Below, one piece after another: positions 4,588-29,459 of a stretch of 29,876 nucleotides of DNA. Made by a program: the position numbers and the translations under genes. The stretch's first letter is position 1; each line of letters begins with the position of its first letter. Source of the stretch: a virus. Below the pieces are notes generated by a model, which was not told the origin of the DNA, made no database searches, and saw only the letters and a program-made list of their open reading frames with translations. The stretch is taken from the IMG/VR virus record IMGVR_UViG_3300035698_008810, positions 1 to 29,876 of that record. One strand, written 5' to 3'.

Positions 4588-4848
4588 TTAACTATTACAA
4601 AAAGTATCTGGGGAACCATCTCTTAAAAGTGCCCCACAACCCATAGTATCGCCCTCTCTAGCCAGTAAATCACTATTTCCCTTAGTATTAAGTGAACCTG
4701 TACTAATTTGCTGGCTTCCATGCCTATTGCAGTGTACAGCATCCCCAACTCTTGCCACAGGGATTCCATTTACAAAGATATTTGAAGACCCCGTTTGTAC
4801 ATATCCTCCATGAGATATTAAATCACCTTTTCTTATTAATTTCCTCAT
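4588..4848 (-). CDS. PAAR-domain spike tip protein
   Basis: This 86-aa protein has the PAAR pattern: KLIRKGDLISHGGYVQTGSS, then NIFVNGIPVARVGD with a His/Cys set (DAVHCNRHG), then a second repeat ending GSPDTFCNS. PAAR proteins form a sharp cone, with a metal bound by His/Cys, on the end of the VgrG/gp5 spike; T4 gp5.4 is the phage example. The ATG at 4848 lies inside the upstream Tfa-like gene (26-base overlap) and has GGAG 7 bases before it, which supports the overlapping start. It should cap the spike protein encoded at 13522-14508. It is unusual that it lies among fibre genes instead of next to the spike. Confidence 0.88.
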   Translation of the reverse strand: MRKLIRKGDLISHGGYVQTGSSNIFVNGIPVARVGDAVHCNRHGSQQISTGSLNTKGNSDLLAREGDTMGCGALLRDGSPDTFCNS

Positions 4849-10226: not shown

Positions 10227-11969
10227 TTAACTATTTGTAATTAGAGTTGTACTTCTTGGATCTGTAGATCTAGAATAAACATTAACCACCAAAGTTCCTA
10301 AAGTATAAATTTCATCTCTTGCTACAGGAATATCTTGCAAAAAGTCAAATTGTGTTTCAATACTTAAAGTATCTCCTACAGATGGAGCCACTATATCATC
10401 TATTGTAACTTGGTCTATAGTATTGCTTAAAATATCATACGATTGGCTTGATAAAACACCCGAAGTAAAAGTTAAAGTTCCAGCCGCAAATTGATTTACA
10501 GTAATAGGATTAGAAAGAGTATTTAAATCTATTTGAGTAGATAAACCAGAAGTAAAAGTAGCATCTACTTTAGCTGTTTCTGTTGTTTCTGTTCCTGGTA
10601 TTCCTATGTTAGCTTGCAATATTCCATCTATACTTAAAACTTCTCTTTGTAATTCAGAGATATAAAAAGTCTCCCCTGGCTGCAAAGTTTCTCTATTAAA
10701 AAAAGTTTCTGCAGTAGTTTCTATTTCTGTTTGAATATCGCTTGCTGTCTGAGTTGTTAAAGTTACATAAGCATTGATTGTCATATCTATCGTAGTAGTG
10801 TTTCCCTCATATACAAAAATATCTACAGTCAATACTGCCCTAGCTTTTAAATATGCGTATAATTTTTGTCTTAAAGCAGCGGAAGCTCCAGTGTAAGCCC
10901 CTCCTACAGTTAAAGCCCAGGCATAAACTTCTACTTCATTGGCACTTGAATTTGTTTGACCGTACCTAGGATAAGCTACTGCTTTAGCAATTGACCCATA
11001 AGTAGGGTCACTAAATTGAGAAGCCAATGAATCATAATCACTTTTTGTTATTGCATTTCCATGAGTTCGGACATATCTGGGAGCATTAAATTTAATACTG
11101 TCTATAGATTCTTCATTCTCTCCACCCTGGGCAGAAGCTGGATTAGCTATGGTTACACTAATATCACCACTGATTGTTGTAGCAGTTATAGTAGTGTCTA
11201 TAGTATTAGCCGCTATTATCCCAATTTCACCCCCACCAACTCTATAATCTACTACTATATTATCCGTCCCTATAGGAGGAATTCTTCCACTTACTCCATT
11301 ACCAAATCTAACAGTTGCAGTATTATTTCCATCAAATTTTAATTCATAAACATTCTCATCCCCACTAAAAACTAAAGCATCCGTTTCTAACCATTCAGTT
11401 CCATCTACAGTTATTGTATAACTATTTTGAATTCCAGAATCATTAGAAACAGTATATTCTTGATTAGCTGCTCCCGTACCATCAAAGGTGTCTTGATAAC
11501 TTCTGCCCTCATAAAAAGTAGGTCCGGAAGTATAAACTATACTTGTAACTCCTGCACCTATTATAAAATCGGCTAAAGTTTCAAAGTATAAATCAGCCAC
11601 TTGTATTTGTGTGGCTGATGGAATAGTGGCGGCTAAACTTGTAAATTCAGTTCTTTCGCAAGATACTTGAACACTTGCAGCCGTAGGAGGAGAAGGTTGA
11701 TAACCAATTAAATTTACAATCTTAACTAAATTAGTTCTTTGGGTAGCAGTAGGTAAATAAACTTCGTTTGCTTGCATATCTGCCGTAAAGCTCATTATAT
11801 CACCTACATATGCAGCAACTTCAATTAACATGACTCCTAAAGTTGATTCTGTGAAATCGGTATAATCCTCCGGGTATACCGCCTGTATATAATTTTCTAT
11901 AGCAGCTTTTATAGTGTTAAAATCTCTAGCTGAATAATCTATTCTTGGATAACTTGTACTCATGATCAT
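10227..11969 (-). CDS. Baseplate wedge protein J / gp6-like
   Basis: This 580-aa protein has the Baseplate_J layout. The N-terminus reads DYSARDFNTIKAAIENYIQA, followed by ESTLGVMLIEVAAYVGDIMS and NEVYLPTATQRTNLVKIVNL. The central region has the conserved GGENEESIDSIKFNAPRYVR and AITKSDYDSLASQF. It is the central wedge part that dimerises round the baseplate and drives the sheath trigger. The ATG at 11969 overlaps the stop of the HNH gene (TAATG). A second ATG two codons later is also possible. The stop is followed by TTAATTAATTAA, giving stops in other frames. Confidence 0.9.
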   Translation of the reverse strand: MIMSTSYPRIDYSARDFNTIKAAIENYIQAVYPEDYTDFTESTLGVMLIEVAAYVGDIMSFTADMQANEVYLPTATQRTNLVKIVNLIGYQPSPPTAASVQVSCERTEFTSLAATIPSATQIQVADLYFETLADFIIGAGVTSIVYTSGPTFYEGRSYQDTFDGTGAANQEYTVSNDSGIQNSYTITVDGTEWLETDALVFSGDENVYELKFDGNNTATVRFGNGVSGRIPPIGTDNIVVDYRVGGGEIGIIAANTIDTTITATTISGDISVTIANPASAQGGENEESIDSIKFNAPRYVRTHGNAITKSDYDSLASQFSDPTYGSIAKAVAYPRYGQTNSSANEVEVYAWALTVGGAYTGASAALRQKLYAYLKARAVLTVDIFVYEGNTTTIDMTINAYVTLTTQTASDIQTEIETTAETFFNRETLQPGETFYISELQREVLSIDGILQANIGIPGTETTETAKVDATFTSGLSTQIDLNTLSNPITVNQFAAGTLTFTSGVLSSQSYDILSNTIDQVTIDDIVAPSVGDTLSIETQFDFLQDIPVARDEIYTLGTLVVNVYSRSTDPRSTTLITNS

Positions 11970-12208
11970 TATTTCCTAGTTAAACCCTTACTTATATCTT
12001 TTTTATGCAATTGTTGATGGCACGATCTGCAAACAGAAATTAAATTACTTTTATAATCAGCTTTTTTATCCTCTTTATTTTTTGCACGGCTTTTATGATG
12101 GATATCTAATTTTTTTGTCTTTTCTCCACATCTTTGACAGGTATAATTATCTCTTTCTTTTATTTCTTCTCTTCTTTCTTTTTGTATTTTATGCCTTTTT
12201 GGTTTCAC
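11969..12208 (-). CDS. HNH endonuclease, free-standing
   Basis: The 79-aa product starts with GTG at 12208, 8 bases after AGGAG. It carries a complete small HNH motif: CQRCGEKTKKLDIHHKSR, then N-x-x-S-VCRSCHQQLHKKD. There are two CxxC zinc pairs and the catalytic His pair, with the Asn (SNLISV) between. Free-standing HNH genes between virion genes are usually homing endonucleases that spread into phages lacking them. The N-terminus is basic (MKPKRHKIQKERREE) and fits DNA contact. It lies between the zinc-ribbon gene and the gp6/J-like gene. A packaging HNH is less likely, as no terminase is nearby. Confidence 0.88.
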   Translation of the reverse strand: MKPKRHKIQKERREEIKERDNYTCQRCGEKTKKLDIHHKSRAKNKEDKKADYKSNLISVCRSCHQQLHKKDISKGLTRK

Positions 12209-16657: not shown

Positions 16658-18898
16658 TTAATCACTCCAACTTAATAAATTAGAGGATAAAAAATTTTCT
16701 ACTTTCATTTCTTTTCCTCTATCTTCTTTTAATAATGAAATCATTTGATCTAACTTTTTACCTATAATAGTTAAATCTAAATTAACATTAACTTGAGGTG
16801 CTTTATTATCATTTGCTGCATTAGGTGCCATGCCTTTTATTAGCCGTCCCATATCCTCTACAGGCATTACAACTTCTGGTCCATTTTCTCCCACCACCAT
16901 TGGTTGGGGAGCAGTAACTAAAGCTCCTGATGCTGCCCCTACTATTTTAGCTTCAGACCCCCATATGCCTGTTTTTTCAAGCAACCACTTCATGCCTTTT
17001 CCACCTGTTTGTTTCATAGAATCCCACAAATTACCAATTTTATTTAACCATCCCCATAAGGTTTTAAGACTAAGAGTCACAGAATCTATCGGGTGTTTGA
17101 AAAAAAATAATAAATTATTACCTACATTTTTTAAACCTGTTTCAAAAGAATCTATTAAAATATTTAACCATTTAACTTCTATTCCAAATTTTTTTAATAC
17201 CCAATTAATTAACTTAAAAGTACCGTAAATAGCCCCCCCAACCAATGCTACTTTAGCCATAACTATTAAAAAAGGTAACATCGAAATCATTAAACCATAA
17301 AAAGCAGGTATCACTTTAAATAAAATCATTTTAGTTAAAAAACCAAAACCTTTCATAAGAAATTTAAAAGGCCCTGCTATTAAACTACCCATAGCTTTAA
17401 AAACTGCCCCTATCCCTATTTTTTTTAATATAACAAAAGCAGTAGATAAAGCAAAGGTAGTTACTATTAAACTAGCCATTAAACTTATTGTATACTTAAA
17501 AGGGGTTGAAAGATTTTCTAGCCATTTAGCTGTTTTTTCTAAATAAGGTACCAATTTTTTTAATACAGAATGTAAGAACTCAAAAAATACAGTTCCTAAT
17601 GATTTAAATATTGGAATAAACGCATTTTTAAGTTGGGCCGTTAAAGACTCAAATCTATTTTGCATTTTAGTCCAGGCTTTATCTATTGCTGTAGGATCAG
17701 CTTCCTTTTTGAAACCCTTGAAAATATTTTCAAAATTTACCTTACTCATTGTTTTCAACTGTATAGCCACGTCATAACTTACGCCATAAAGCTCCTGCAT
17801 AGAACTTCCAAATCTTTCAATTTGTTCCCTAGATAAACCACTAACCGCCTTATATAAAAGCGTCATATAATCAGCATATTTACCTTCTTCTATTAATTTA
17901 TTTATATCAGATAAAGGTTTTCCAAGATTCTGTGAAAGCATATGTTTTATAGTTAAGCCCTCGGCCGAATACTTCATTCTTAAATTCTTAAACATGTCCG
18001 CCAATCCACTTGTTTCAATTCCTGCGTTGTTTAAAGCCCCTCCTATTTTTAAAATGCTCTTTAACATAGTGTGTGCTACAGTTTTAGTAGATGTTTTAGC
18101 CAGCAATTTAAACTCTTCTACTAAACTTGCTACTTCATCTACTGTCATATTAGTAGCAGTAGCAACAGAGTATACCATAGACGACATTTCTTTTAATTTT
18201 CCTTTTCCTTTATAAAATTTAAGAAAAGTTTTAACTAATTTAGAACTTGATTCAATACCTAGAGTAGTAGTCACATTTAAATAAGACACAGATTTATTAA
18301 ATGCATTCATAGTATCTTTATCTTTTATAATAAAGTTGTCATAAGTCCCAAACATAGTTTTCATTTGTTCTTCAGTCATTTTCAATTGTAACATATTAGT
18401 TAAAAAAGATCGTTTCATATATTTTTCTTGCTTTATAGTAAGTTGAACATTTTTTTGCATGGAAGCTGAAAGATTATCAAAAGAGGCACCAAATTCAATA
18501 AGGTATTTAAAAGCACCAAAAGCTACCAACACCCCAGCTAAATCTGCTACGCCAACTTTGACTTTGCTTACATTTTTGCCTAATATAGCCATTCTAGCGG
18601 CGGCCATCTTTACCATACCCTTCAAAGAATCAAAAGCTCCTGCCTGTGTGTCCAAAGTATTTGAAAGATCATCTACAGCATTTGTACTTTCTTTAGTTTC
18701 TTTTTGAAAAGTATCACTCCCTTGATGCTTCAAATCATTTATTTCTTCAGTAATATTGCTAATACTTTTCTTAGCATTATCTAAAGTCTTTTTAGAGGTT
18801 TTTTCAAATTTTTCAAAAGTACCTTGTACAGTATTCATAGGTTTTGATACTTCGTCTTTCATTTTCATCGAAAACTCAAGATTCTTTTTTATATCCAT
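16658..18898 (-). CDS. Tape measure protein
   Basis: The 746-aa protein has an N-terminal coiled-coil region (1-100), a TP901-like core (about 120-390) with KYLIEFGASFDNLSASMQKN, MTVDEVASLVEEFKLLAKTS and REQIERFGSSMQELYG, then a long hydrophobic part (about 468-566) with several membrane-like helices. It ends with the common tape-measure signature VVGENGPEVVMPV (668-680). With the usual 0.15 nm per residue, the tail would be near 110 nm; this is an estimate. ATG 18898 lies 11 bases after the stop of the frameshift extension; a GAGG about 14 bases upstream is the only site, so translation may be coupled to the frameshifted frame. Confidence 0.9.
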   Translation of the reverse strand: MDIKKNLEFSMKMKDEVSKPMNTVQGTFEKFEKTSKKTLDNAKKSISNITEEINDLKHQGSDTFQKETKESTNAVDDLSNTLDTQAGAFDSLKGMVKMAAARMAILGKNVSKVKVGVADLAGVLVAFGAFKYLIEFGASFDNLSASMQKNVQLTIKQEKYMKRSFLTNMLQLKMTEEQMKTMFGTYDNFIIKDKDTMNAFNKSVSYLNVTTTLGIESSSKLVKTFLKFYKGKGKLKEMSSMVYSVATATNMTVDEVASLVEEFKLLAKTSTKTVAHTMLKSILKIGGALNNAGIETSGLADMFKNLRMKYSAEGLTIKHMLSQNLGKPLSDINKLIEEGKYADYMTLLYKAVSGLSREQIERFGSSMQELYGVSYDVAIQLKTMSKVNFENIFKGFKKEADPTAIDKAWTKMQNRFESLTAQLKNAFIPIFKSLGTVFFEFLHSVLKKLVPYLEKTAKWLENLSTPFKYTISLMASLIVTTFALSTAFVILKKIGIGAVFKAMGSLIAGPFKFLMKGFGFLTKMILFKVIPAFYGLMISMLPFLIVMAKVALVGGAIYGTFKLINWVLKKFGIEVKWLNILIDSFETGLKNVGNNLLFFFKHPIDSVTLSLKTLWGWLNKIGNLWDSMKQTGGKGMKWLLEKTGIWGSEAKIVGAASGALVTAPQPMVVGENGPEVVMPVEDMGRLIKGMAPNAANDNKAPQVNVNLDLTIIGKKLDQMISLLKEDRGKEMKVENFLSSNLLSWSD

Positions 18899-18909
18899 AA
18901 TAATTTTAA

Positions 18910-19828
18910 CTACCTCTTTCTATTTGCCTTTTCCATTTCCTCATTCTTCTTATCTATGGTGTCACTAAGTAACTTATGAAAATAATTGCGTTCACTGACG
19001 GGCATATTTTCTGTGTCTGTATAATTAAATCCTTTTGCGAAGTAACCAAGATCAAATTGTTGTTGCAAAATGTTTCTTGTCTTTACTTCGCTCTGTCCGA
19101 AAAAAAGCAGACGTAAGCCTCAAATAAGTTTCAAATAAATAACCGCATTGTGGACACTCAATTTCAATATCAAAATTAATTCCGGCTGTATTCTTTTCTA
19201 TATCATTTCTAAAAGCAGACGAATCCATAGTTACCATATCTTTTACAAATTCTAAAGTATCCATTACATCGACTTCTTTTTCATCAATATGAGTTATTCT
19301 TCTTGCAAGACTATATTCATAAGCTTCATCCCCTAAAGAATTCTTTTTTCTGTTATTCTCTCTTTTTCTAAATTGGTATATAGCATTCTCATCTTTTCCT
19401 CTTAACATTTTATAGCCTATAGTTACTCCGCTATTAGGTAAAGTTATTTCAAAAGGTTCTTTTTCATTGCCCTCATAATATGTAACTTCTAAAGCATTTA
19501 AATCTGTAGTATGGTTATAAACATTTCCACAAGACTCACAGTTAACTGGTATGGTATATTTAGACCCAAATGATAATTGCCTTATTTTAAAGATTAAAAA
19601 TAGCCTGTCAGCATCTAAAAGGTCATATACAGTCAAACCTTCAGGAAGTCCTTCAACACATCTTTTTATAAGAGTATCAATCTTTTGATTTATAGCCGCT
19701 CCACCACTATAAATTAATTTTTCTTCTTTAGTTGTCATACTCTTTACTGTAATATCGCCTATTTCTTTATCGTATAAAACTCCTTTTGAAGGCAATGTAA
19801 ATTGCTGTTCTATACTACTATTACTCAT
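18910..19828 (-). CDS. gp26-family tail chaperone with frameshift extension (proposed G-T type product)
   Basis: A +1 (or -2) shift at T7-CGG (19097-19108) would join residues 1-243 of the gp26-family protein to a 62-codon frame ending at TAG 18910, giving about 305 aa. The added part reads GQSEVKTRNILQQQF, then GYFAKGFNYTDTENMPVSER and NYFHKLLSDTIDKKNEE. It has no usual start with a ribosome site; the ATG within it lacks one. In the +1 frame a TGA lies seven codons above the slip, so the frame is open only from just before it. The shape (zinc protein, shift, extension, tape measure) is that of siphovirus gpG/gpGT. The shift itself is inferred, not shown. Confidence 0.65.
19052..19828 (-). 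CDS. gp26/T4_baseplate-type zinc protein, tail assembly chaperone
   Basis: The unshifted product is 258 aa. Its start (FTLPSKGVLYDKEIGDITVK, then SMTTKEEKLIYSGGAAI) and the following LLDADRLFLIFKIRQLSFGS are the T4_baseplate (gp26-like) pattern. Two CxxC pairs (C97/C100, C225/C228) should bind one zinc. In T4 such proteins aid baseplate-hub assembly with the tape measure; here the place just before the tape measure suits a chaperone. It ends 10 residues after the slip site region with a Lys-rich tail (RSKDKKHFATTI). ATG 19828 follows AGGGGATAAAAAAAA. Confidence 0.82.
   Translation of the reverse strand: MSNSSIEQQFTLPSKGVLYDKEIGDITVKSMTTKEEKLIYSGGAAINQKIDTLIKRCVEGLPEGLTVYDLLDADRLFLIFKIRQLSFGSKYTIPVNCESCGNVYNHTTDLNALEVTYYEGNEKEPFEITLPNSGVTIGYKMLRGKDENAIYQFRKRENNRKKNSLGDEAYEYSLARRITHIDEKEVDVMDTLEFVKDMVTMDSSAFRNDIEKNTAGINFDIEIECPQCGYLFETYLRLTSAFFRTERSKDKKHFATTI
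19097..19108 (-). promoter_or_regulatory. Probable ribosomal frameshift site (T7 then CGG)
   Basis: The minus-strand sequence is GCT TTT TTT CGG in the frame of the gp26-family gene. Slip of the last TTT by +1 reads TTC, and Phe tRNA stays paired. A -2 slip on the T run gives the same frame. The rare-looking CGG in an AT-rich gene would slow the ribosome. The same UUU-C-G core drives the influenza PA-X +1 shift. A -1 slip meets TAA within six codons and is excluded. Confidence 0.6.
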
Positions 19829-19886: not shown

Positions 19887-20423
19887 CTATTGTTGGTAAG
19901 CAAAAGTTGGAAAAGCTTTGTCATATCGTATTGTTATTTCTAATTCTACTTGGTCATTAGAAGTATTGTCTAAATCTCCTGCCGTCACTGTTTTAGGCCA
20001 ACACCCTTCTAATCTCCAGGTTCTTTTAAAATTATCATCGTCATTAGGAGATAGCATATAAATATACGCAGTAACTTTGTAATCACTTGCTAACCCTATT
20101 TTATCATTAAAAGGGTTATATACTTTCTTTTTCCATCTATAAACTACTCCTGCTGTATCTGTGTCTATAAAATCCCTAACTCTTACAGTACCCTCAGAAT
20201 AAGTAGCTCTTCCAGCTACGTAAACACTTGTATTTTTACCTGGAAATTCTACTTCATCATTTGTCATCTCGGGAATAAAGGCACCTATAGTGGATAATTT
20301 TAATAATTTTTCGTCTCCACTGTCATTTAAAATAAATTGAATATAATACTGATTCCTTCTCTGTGGTTCATATCCACCCCCACTAGGTGCTATATAATCC
20401 ACGGTTAAATTAGTAGTTGCCAT
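19887..20423 (-). CDS. Tail tube protein (gp19-like)
   Basis: The 178-aa product has the size and pattern of T4 gp19-type tube proteins: NQYYIQFILN at the start, STIGAFIPEMTNDEVEFPGK, YSEGTVRVRDFIDTDTAGVV then YRWKKKVYNPFND, and FKRTWRLEGCWPKTVTAGDL with ELEITIRYDKAF at the end. The last strand is the typical tube end. The protein stacks as hexamers round the tape measure. It follows the sheath gene by 12 bases, with its start after AAGGAAAATGATCT. Confidence 0.92.
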   Translation of the reverse strand: MATTNLTVDYIAPSGGGYEPQRRNQYYIQFILNDSGDEKLLKLSTIGAFIPEMTNDEVEFPGKNTSVYVAGRATYSEGTVRVRDFIDTDTAGVVYRWKKKVYNPFNDKIGLASDYKVTAYIYMLSPNDDDNFKRTWRLEGCWPKTVTAGDLDNTSNDQVELEITIRYDKAFPTFAYQQ

Positions 20424-27518: not shown

Positions 27519-29459
27519 TTATTTCCAAGTATCATTTTGAGTAACTATAGCCTGAAAAATATTGACATCGTCTAATTTTTTAGGTTTAGAGCTCTCATTT
27601 AATTTTTGTGTTTTTTTTATTTTTTTAGCAACATCATTGCTCTTTGACTCTATATTATTATCAGATTCATTGATCTGTTTACTAAGCATCTTTTTTAATT
27701 CAACTAAACTTTTGGTACTTTCTAAAATAGGCTGTACACATATAAGTTTAGGATTTTTTTCAATAGCTTCATTTATAAGTCTTTCTTTTGCTTGTTTTTC
27801 ATAACTACCTATAAAATCCTGTATAATTTGATAAGAGGCTTTATTACGTTTAGTCAATTGAACGTTTGCTTCATTTAAAGATTTTTTATGACTTTCTAAA
27901 AATACTACTTTTTTCTTTAAATTAGTAAGCTCTTTTTTATAGTTATTTATAGCTTCTTTAAAACTAATTTTTTTAGGAAATTCTAAAGATTCACCATACC
28001 TTTTTTTAGAAGTTTTAGCCGCTAATTTAGCTCTTTTTTTTGCTGCTGATTTAGATATCTTCATCTTTTTCCCCGTTCTTTTTCTAGCTGCTGCTTTTTG
28101 TTTAGCCGATTGTATCTTCTTTTTTCTATATACCTTTTTTCGTTTTTCTTCTAAACTTTCTTCATCCTCATAATCTTCTTCATCTTGTTCTTGATAAGTC
28201 TCATCATAATCAAAATCTCCGCCTTCATACTCCTCATCATCGTAATACTCATCCTCATCTTCATATTCATCATCATCCATGTAGTCATCATCATCGTAAT
28301 ACTCATCATCGTCTACGTAGTCGTCATCGTCCATATATTCTTCATCCATATAATCATCATCATCATCATTTGTATAATTACCATTACTCATCTCTTCATT
28401 ATAACCTGCATCGTCTAAAGGGTCATAATCATAATCTTCTGGTACTCCCAAATCAACTACACCTTCATTAAAAGTACCTTTAAAATGTTTATCAGATTTC
28501 TTATTTGACTCTGAAAGATTTAATCTTTCTTTAACCCTGTCATTTATAGCACTCTCTATTTTTAAAGCGTTTTCTAAAGAAGACTCAATAATTGAAGGTA
28601 TTGTACTTATTTCTTGAGTAGACTCCAATTTTATCTTTTCTTCTTCTTTTTTCTTTTTTTCGTTAGGATCCATATTATCTCTAGCCTCCTGTAATTTAGT
28701 ATTGAGGGAGTCCCTAATCCTTGATATTTGATCTCCCTGACTGTTAAATTTAGCTAATTCTTTTTCTAAAGTATTCAATTCTTGTTTTGTCTCTCTAGAA
28801 AGTTTATCTTCTTTTAGTATTTCTTTATATATTTGCATTAATCGTACTGCTAATTGAAAAAGGGAGTCAATATCATACATATCTAAATTTATAGTTTCTA
28901 CTATAGATTCTTTCACCTCACCATAAGGTTTGTATAATCTTGGATAAGCTCCCTGAGTACTAGGCTTATAAACAAAATCAAATGTATCTAAAATATAATC
29001 TTTAGGTGTTATCCATTCTACTTCTTCTTTATCTATAGTTTTTTTTGCTGAAGTTCCACCCCCTCGACTAGATACCCCAATTCTAGCTTTTCTTCTTGCT
29101 AATTCTTGTAATATAAGTCCTGTAGGAGTGTTGTATAGCTCTGCTTGCCCTGTTATTTCTGTGCCATTCATACCTAAAGCAATTATAGCATGAGAAATAT
29201 CTTGTGCCCGTGTTTTATCATCGCTAGGGTGTTCTACTACTCCCAACATACCTCTTGTTCCATTAGGGCAAATTATCCTACTCTGCTCTTCTTCTACTAT
29301 TCTTTCCCACAGTTCCAAAGGATAATATCTACCATTTATATTTTTTCTGTTAGCTTCTTGAAATTTGCCCTTTAATATAAATAAGTCATTTTGAGACTCA
29401 TTAAAAGAAAGTCCGGCTAAGGGGTACATATCATCTCTTAAAGGCTTTCTTTGTACCAT
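27519..29459 (-). CDS. Prohead protease-scaffold fusion (gp21 + core proteins)
   Basis: The 646-aa protein starts MVQRKPLRDDM (ATG 29459, GGGAG upstream). Residues about 20-185 are a T4 gp21-type (family U9/S80) protease: RKNINGRYYPLELWERIV, GMLGVVEHPSD (H77), ARIGVSSRGGG (S130/S131) and the conserved DFVYKPS end. The rest is core: helical (185-320), an Asp/Glu/Tyr block (341-436), a Lys/Arg/Ala block (439-488), then coiled coil and a C-terminal end like a scaffold (about 500-646). In T4 these functions are separate: gp21, acidic gp67, basic gp68 and gp22. L-x-E sites, such as LEE-K at 438 between the blocks, suggest self-cutting. Confidence 0.87.
   Translation of the reverse strand: MVQRKPLRDDMYPLAGLSFNESQNDLFILKGKFQEANRKNINGRYYPLELWERIVEEEQSRIICPNGTRGMLGVVEHPSDDKTRAQDISHAIIALGMNGTEITGQAELYNTPTGLILQELARRKARIGVSSRGGGTSAKKTIDKEEVEWITPKDYILDTFDFVYKPSTQGAYPRLYKPYGEVKESIVETINLDMYDIDSLFQLAVRLMQIYKEILKEDKLSRETKQELNTLEKELAKFNSQGDQISRIRDSLNTKLQEARDNMDPNEKKKKEEEKIKLESTQEISTIPSIIESSLENALKIESAINDRVKERLNLSESNKKSDKHFKGTFNEGVVDLGVPEDYDYDPLDDAGYNEEMSNGNYTNDDDDDYMDEEYMDDDDYVDDDEYYDDDDYMDDDEYEDEDEYYDDEEYEGGDFDYDETYQEQDEEDYEDEESLEEKRKKVYRKKKIQSAKQKAAARKRTGKKMKISKSAAKKRAKLAAKTSKKRYGESLEFPKKISFKEAINNYKKELTNLKKKVVFLESHKKSLNEANVQLTKRNKASYQIIQDFIGSYEKQAKERLINEAIEKNPKLICVQPILESTKSLVELKKMLSKQINESDNNIESKSNDVAKKIKKTQKLNESSKPKKLDDVNIFQAIVTQNDTWK
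28185..28420 (-). repeat. GAT/GAC/TAC triplet tract coding the acidic block of the scaffold
   Basis: On the minus strand the tract is a near-repeat of GAT, GAC, GAA and TAT codons, giving runs such as YMDDDDYVDDDEYYDDDDYM. On the plus strand it reads as TCATCATCG repeats. Triplet tracts of this kind can change length by slippage with no frame change, so the block length may vary between close relatives. Confidence 0.75.

Follow-up and report, generated by a model that had tools for sequence, protein, structure and literature searches.

A candidate +1 frameshift giving a tail chaperone pair from gp26-type genes of T4-like contractile-tailed phages

Xu, Hendrix and Duda (2004) reportedly described a conserved frameshift in the tail chaperone genes of phages, and Vladimirov, Gautam and Davidson (2022) are said to have found that frameshifting is kept in several T4-like groups, with the T4 group itself using genes 26 and 51. 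To our knowledge, +1 programmed frameshifts at sense codons are rare in bacteria and phages, and few natural families are available for comparison. The review PMC5009743 has gpG and gpGT acting on the tape measure protein in lambda, names T4 as the exception, and gives the haloarchaeal myovirus HSTV-2 as very likely a +1 case. Two papers that cite Vladimirov 2022 state that some T4-like phages have separate short and long genes (PMC10885494) and that poly-T −1 signals occur in the TAC-N genes of T4-like phages (PMC12846349). PMC3004832 describes gp26 and gp51 as hub assembly chaperones, of which gp51 is absent from the particle.

The sequence analyzed here, referred to as the window, is the whole 29,876-nucleotide stretch of viral DNA presented above. 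Its initial annotation proposed that a T4 gp26-type gene beside the tape measure gene gives rise to a pair of proteins resembling G and GT, a proposal that comparative evidence now supports. We hold with considerable confidence that this gene yields a G/GT chaperone pair by a +1 slip at UUU CGG; the occurrence of the shift, its direction, its efficiency, and the chaperone role are what we infer from comparison of sequences.

Gene order and slip site in the window

The locus lies on the minus strand. A gp19-type tail tube gene (19887..20423; PF06841, E 1.4e-7; phrog_4542, E 2.6e-23) stands directly upstream of the gp26-type gene, and a tape measure protein gene (16658..18898; phrog_167, E 1.8e-14) directly downstream. 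This order of tail tube, G(T), and tape measure matches that of lambda-type tails and is found again in Bacillus phage SP-15, Listeria phage LIS04, and Flavobacterium phage immuto. The gp26-type gene itself (19052..19828) encodes a predicted short tail assembly chaperone, G or TAC-N, of 258 residues with two CxxC pairs, and its 0-frame product ends in LTSAFFRTERSKDKKHFATTI before the stop.

The assignment of G to the gp26 family is based on Pfam T4_baseplate (PF12322), which it matches over the full profile (positions 7–218 of 219) with E 2.3e-17 and 63.9 bits, above the gathering cut-off of 24.5, and on phrog_150 (E 1.1e-19). T4 gp26 and gp51 both belong to PF12322, gp51 being the longer at the C-terminus, and T4 gene 26 has lost the slip heptamer, reading GAG TTC TTT GAG. 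The AlphaFold model of G (pLDDT 91.9) suggests a modest structural similarity to known tail chaperones: its two best VIA-align matches are the HK97 chaperone 2ob9 (Z 5.4, rmsd 4.2, 87 aligned) and YqbN 3klu (Z 5.1, rmsd 4.0, 88 aligned), a member of the XkdN-type chaperones, well ahead of the third at Z 2.7, and Foldseek returned E above 1. The N-terminal half of the model matches 3klu and the C-terminal half 2ob9, an arrangement that may reflect internal duplication of the chaperone fold.

Near the end of this gene, minus-strand positions 19108-19091 read GCT TTT TTT CGG ACA GAG. The T7 run (19100..19106) contains the candidate P-site codon TTT (19102-19100); the codon that then enters the A site is the rare CGG. 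The run occupies the position homologous to the conserved TTT TTT TGG CCT of relatives. In the +1 frame, a TGA lies seven codons 5′ of the slip, beyond which 62 codons are open (GQSEVKTRNILQQQFDLGYFAKGFNYTDTENMPVSERNYFHKLLSDTIDKKNEEMEKANRKR) up to a TAG at 18912-18910, 11 nt short of the tape-measure ATG at 18898; the predicted extension, T or TAC-C, spans 18910..19098 with its stop. The initial annotation had described the slip sequence as we find it, and its positions and counts for the TGA, the 62-codon opening, and the 11-nt gap were exact. The extension lies in the +1 frame, so the site is not of the −1 X XXY YYZ type, and the −1 frame closes five codons past the slip. T runs are common in this AT-rich window, where in-frame TTT TTT occurs 13 times among 32 genes (31% GC), and the T7 site alone is therefore weak evidence; TTTTTTTCGG is expected 0.17 times in the window.

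Three other features of the window are recorded here as observations in their own right. The head maturation protease ORF at 27519-29459 contains a very acidic low-complexity stretch (DDDDDYMDEEYMDDDD...) and then a Lys/Arg-rich stretch, and perhaps represents a protease fused to a scaffold-like region. A small glycine-rich protein at 4588-4848 resembles, by eye only, a PAAR-type spike tip, and a small ORF at 11969-12208, amid baseplate genes, has CxxC pairs and His residues and resembles, again by eye only, an HNH endonuclease.

Homologous loci, their slip sites, and the extension

A tblastn search with the upstream protein identified SP-15, LIS04, Streptococcus phage GXN1, and two uncultured huge phages, and in all five an out-of-frame extension follows the gp26-type ORF. 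The 62-residue extension alone, searched by tblastn against 50,697 phage records, gave a single match (E 4e-5), in LIS04, where it falls in an unannotated syntenic gap between gp26 and the tape measure gene. A scan of viral contigs with only the upstream ORF as query supplied further loci, of which the best 80 of 379 were kept, one of them incomplete. The complete scan loci, ten isolate loci, the viral contig L101, the five tblastn relatives, and the window make up a set of 96 loci, each included for its complete gp26-type ORF and selected by that ORF alone; with a scan limited to the best 80 of 379, the sample is biased towards relatives of the query. The nearest independent relatives of the window have only ≈30% identity in G, and scans with the window's sheath gene and the G of GXN1 as queries found no closer relatives of the window.

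A homologous extension out of frame with the gp26-type ORF is present at all 96 loci, 78 of them using the +1 frame and 18 the −1 frame (the scan part being the best 80 of 379), and because these loci were picked by the upstream ORF only, we regard the arrangement seen in the window as real. Among the 90 non-redundant loci, the frame used is open for at least 45 codons beyond the stop in 99% and the other frame in 4%, with the same selection of the best 80 of 379 from the scan. The comparison of homologous loci suggested by the initial annotation came out in its favor as to the out-of-frame extension, and the slip sites are near-invariant.

The +1 sites fall into a few closely related forms. 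Among the loci examined (scan, best 80 of 379), TTT TTT TGG NNN accounts for 67 of the 78, 58 of which have CCT next and nine another codon; TTT CTT TGG CCT is found in three (contigs L051 and L082 and phage immuto, L090), and TTT CGN in five, the window among them. The −1 class carries the usual heptamer T TTT TTC in 16 of 18 loci, in some cases with a stop only a few codons away. Of 70 non-redundant +1 cases, 69 have TTT as the P-site Phe codon, whereas TTT makes up 74% of the Phe codons in the remainder of these genes (p 2e-8). At those TTT TTT TGG loci whose 0-frame Pro is altered, the +1 frame still reads Gly-Leu, which locates the slip immediately ahead of GG. The CTT sites occupy three separate tree positions, each beside TTT relatives, and the upstream-domain tree requires two changes between the +1 and −1 classes, only one of them forced by starred branches. 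In prfB the ribosome slips on CUU, and PMC10885494 ranks CCC and UUU next in slipperiness there.

The part of the extension beyond the upstream stop differs at codon positions 1, 2, and 3 by 429, 252, and 758 changes across 25 independent pairs, and dN is far below dS wherever dS is computable. These patterns indicate that the extension is under purifying selection and that it is very likely a translated protein. AlphaFold models it as three helices (mean pLDDT 91), and a structure search with this model gave no significant match. A profile of the extension matches a profile of T4-like −1-frame tails plus the T4 gp51 end with a probability of 96% (E 4.7e-9), although its match to the single T4 gp51 sequence is weak (E 0.063), if at the expected place; by profile comparison, the extension and the gp51-type tails of T4-like phages are homologs.

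The −1-frame tail is carried in cyanophage annotation as gp51, 'baseplate hub assembly catalyst'. In cyanophages S-RIM50 and S-H34 (L095:3959-4857 and L098:3959-4860), the annotated 'gp51' is a short −1-frame ORF immediately behind gp26; the site there is T TTT TTC, and the ORF is probably the long-form tail, not a separate gene. The small ORFs behind gp26 in XacN1, Serratia BF, and Atu_ph07 are probably tails of this kind too, as is unannotated DNA in PA5oct. PMC3037559 gives cyanophage gp51 as only about 20% of full length, with the first 200 residues missing.

How the long form would be made

In the +1 mechanism that we propose, most ribosomes would read through the site and produce the 258-residue gp26-type protein, the G form. 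A minority would pause when tRNA-Phe occupies UUU in the P site and the A site presents the rare CGG, a pause to which the hairpin just downstream would perhaps add. The tRNA-Phe would then slip forward by one base, from UUU to UUC, a re-pairing that the sequence at the window's P site makes possible, and reading would go on in the +1 frame to give a GT product of about 305 residues, composed of G and the 62-residue helical T domain. By analogy with lambda gpG and gpGT, the G part would coat the tape measure protein, the T part would recruit tube subunits, and both G and GT would depart before tail completion. CGG makes up 6 of the 8920 codons in window genes (0.67 per 1000), and by this rarity it would be a slow A-site codon in the host.

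The hairpin at 19037..19091 (minus strand), a likely pausing or stimulatory element, has a 9-bp stem, GCGAAGTAA/TTACTTCGC, and begins 8 nt past the P-site codon. Its dG of −18.8 kcal/mol corresponds to a z of −5.1, no shuffle was equally stable, and it outranks in stability all 994 60-mers tiled over both strands. At one offset, the share of relatives with stable 3′ structure (z < −2) is 19% for the +1 class, where control positions give 5–6%, and 35% for the −1 class, where they give 18%, such that 3′ structure is enriched and not universal (mean z about −0.8 in the +1 class). Strong 3′ hairpins are commoner with −1 or −2 shifts. Several +1 relatives (L030:3222-3260, L014, L031, and L032) have a compact hairpin, such as GGGCCTA...TAGGCCC, whose start is only a few bases from the slip site and which overlaps the stop of the 0 frame.

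Upstream of the slip, the +1 class shows SD-like pairing at two distances 5′ of the P site, ≈18–27 nt and 3 nt, and in the window a GAGG ends ≈15 nt 5′ of the P-site codon. We do not claim an upstream SD-like stimulator, as the distant signal tracks conserved Met/Leu-Glu-Val codons and may reflect protein constraint.

The closest competitor of the +1 slip, in our judgment an unlikely one, is a −2 slip on the T run aided by the 3′ hairpin, which would give the same fusion with AFFFGQ at the junction instead of AFFGQ. The window, with its T7, and L003 and L004, with T6, permit re-pairing two bases back, which in L004 (a +1 locus with TTT TTT AGT) is even the better one, and a hairpin placed 8 nt downstream, as here, is a typical companion of backward shifts. 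However, the sites CTT TGG (L051, L082, and L090), TTC TTT CGT (L005 and L034), CTG TTT CGC (L096), and AAC TTT CTA (L007, a weak site) re-pair at +1 and not at −2. It is because of such variants that we favor a +1 P-site slip over a −2 slip or polymerase slippage. Where the initial annotation had left the shift as '+1 (or −2)', its first option is upheld and the second is disfavored.

RNA polymerase slippage on the T7 run, by which an altered mRNA would encode the fusion, is very improbable despite the homopolymer present in the window and most relatives. Seven extension-bearing loci lack the run (L005, L034, L051, L082, L090, L096, and L007), the −1 class retains TTT TTC as in the ribosomal heptamer, and no tie to frame changes was noticed for the window's remaining runs of T7 to T9.

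We give equally little credence to the extension being a small gene of its own, translated alone or by coupling in the manner of the annotated cyanophage 'gp51', even though small ORFs are annotated at this place in S-RIM50, S-H34, Mel-JY01, immuto, BRock, and SP-15. A start of the second frame's own in relatives, which the initial annotation had named as an objection to a frameshift, is not conserved: within the 15 codons that follow the slip, 71 of 96 loci lack an ATG, and 57 of 96 lack ATG, GTG, and TTG alike. Moreover, conserved residues start right at the slip (Gly-Leu in the main +1 group), and the slip codons are more strongly conserved than the protein would require. That the frame break is a sequencing error or the mark of a decayed gene is the least credible reading of all: the break does sit on a homopolymer, but the almost identical contig L002 (one difference in 1128 nt) carries the same T7, which excludes the error allowed for by the initial annotation, complete isolate genomes (SP-15, LIS04, GXN1, and others) share the arrangement, and the extension is kept by selection.

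Comparison with described systems

The chaperone-pair principle in T4-like phages, in some with −1 shifting, is already published, and it is the widespread +1 class that looks new. The literature searched contained no mention of a +1 class in the gp26-type family, although Vladimirov 2022 (doi 10.1016/j.virol.2021.11.003), known through the papers that cite it, may already list such sites. On balance we favor the view that the +1 users, which include isolates on Bacillus, Listeria, Streptococcus, Microcystis, Flavobacterium, and Streptomyces and most metagenomic relatives, form a large undescribed class of T4-type contractile-tailed phages that slip at a sense codon (UUU UGG C, CUU UGG C, or UUU CGN), that this gene position has switched between +1 and −1, and that the T4 group has two genes instead.

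With dozens of divergent members and near-invariant sites, the family offers natural variants from which to derive the rules of forward slipping. The finding is also consistent with an origin of T4 genes 26 and 51 by division of a frameshifted ancestor into its short and long forms, accounts for the shortness of cyanophage 'gp51', and corrects many phage annotations in which the long chaperone is absent or given as a small hypothetical gene.

The T4-like chaperones gp26 and gp51 are of the same PF12322 family as the window's G, and the extension is homologous to the gp51-type tail. Unlike them, the window and most of its homologues use +1 with UUU UGG, CUU UGG, or UUU CGN, and have neither a −1 heptamer nor two genes. 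Lambda gpG and gpGT are likewise short and long forms from one gene between the tube and tape measure genes; lambda, however, shifts −1, and the protein family is not the same. At the level of the site, the +1 family closely parallels the release-factor-2 slip codon: three loci with CUU UGG C have the identical P-site codon and near-identical context to CUU UGA C of Escherichia coli prfB, although the A-site codon of the family is a sense codon (Trp) and that of prfB a stop, with no autoregulation implied for the family. The UUU CGN of influenza A PA-X recurs in the window and four other loci, which makes the likeness to PA-X drawn in the initial annotation an apt one; gene and host are unrelated, and the likeness is one of the site only.
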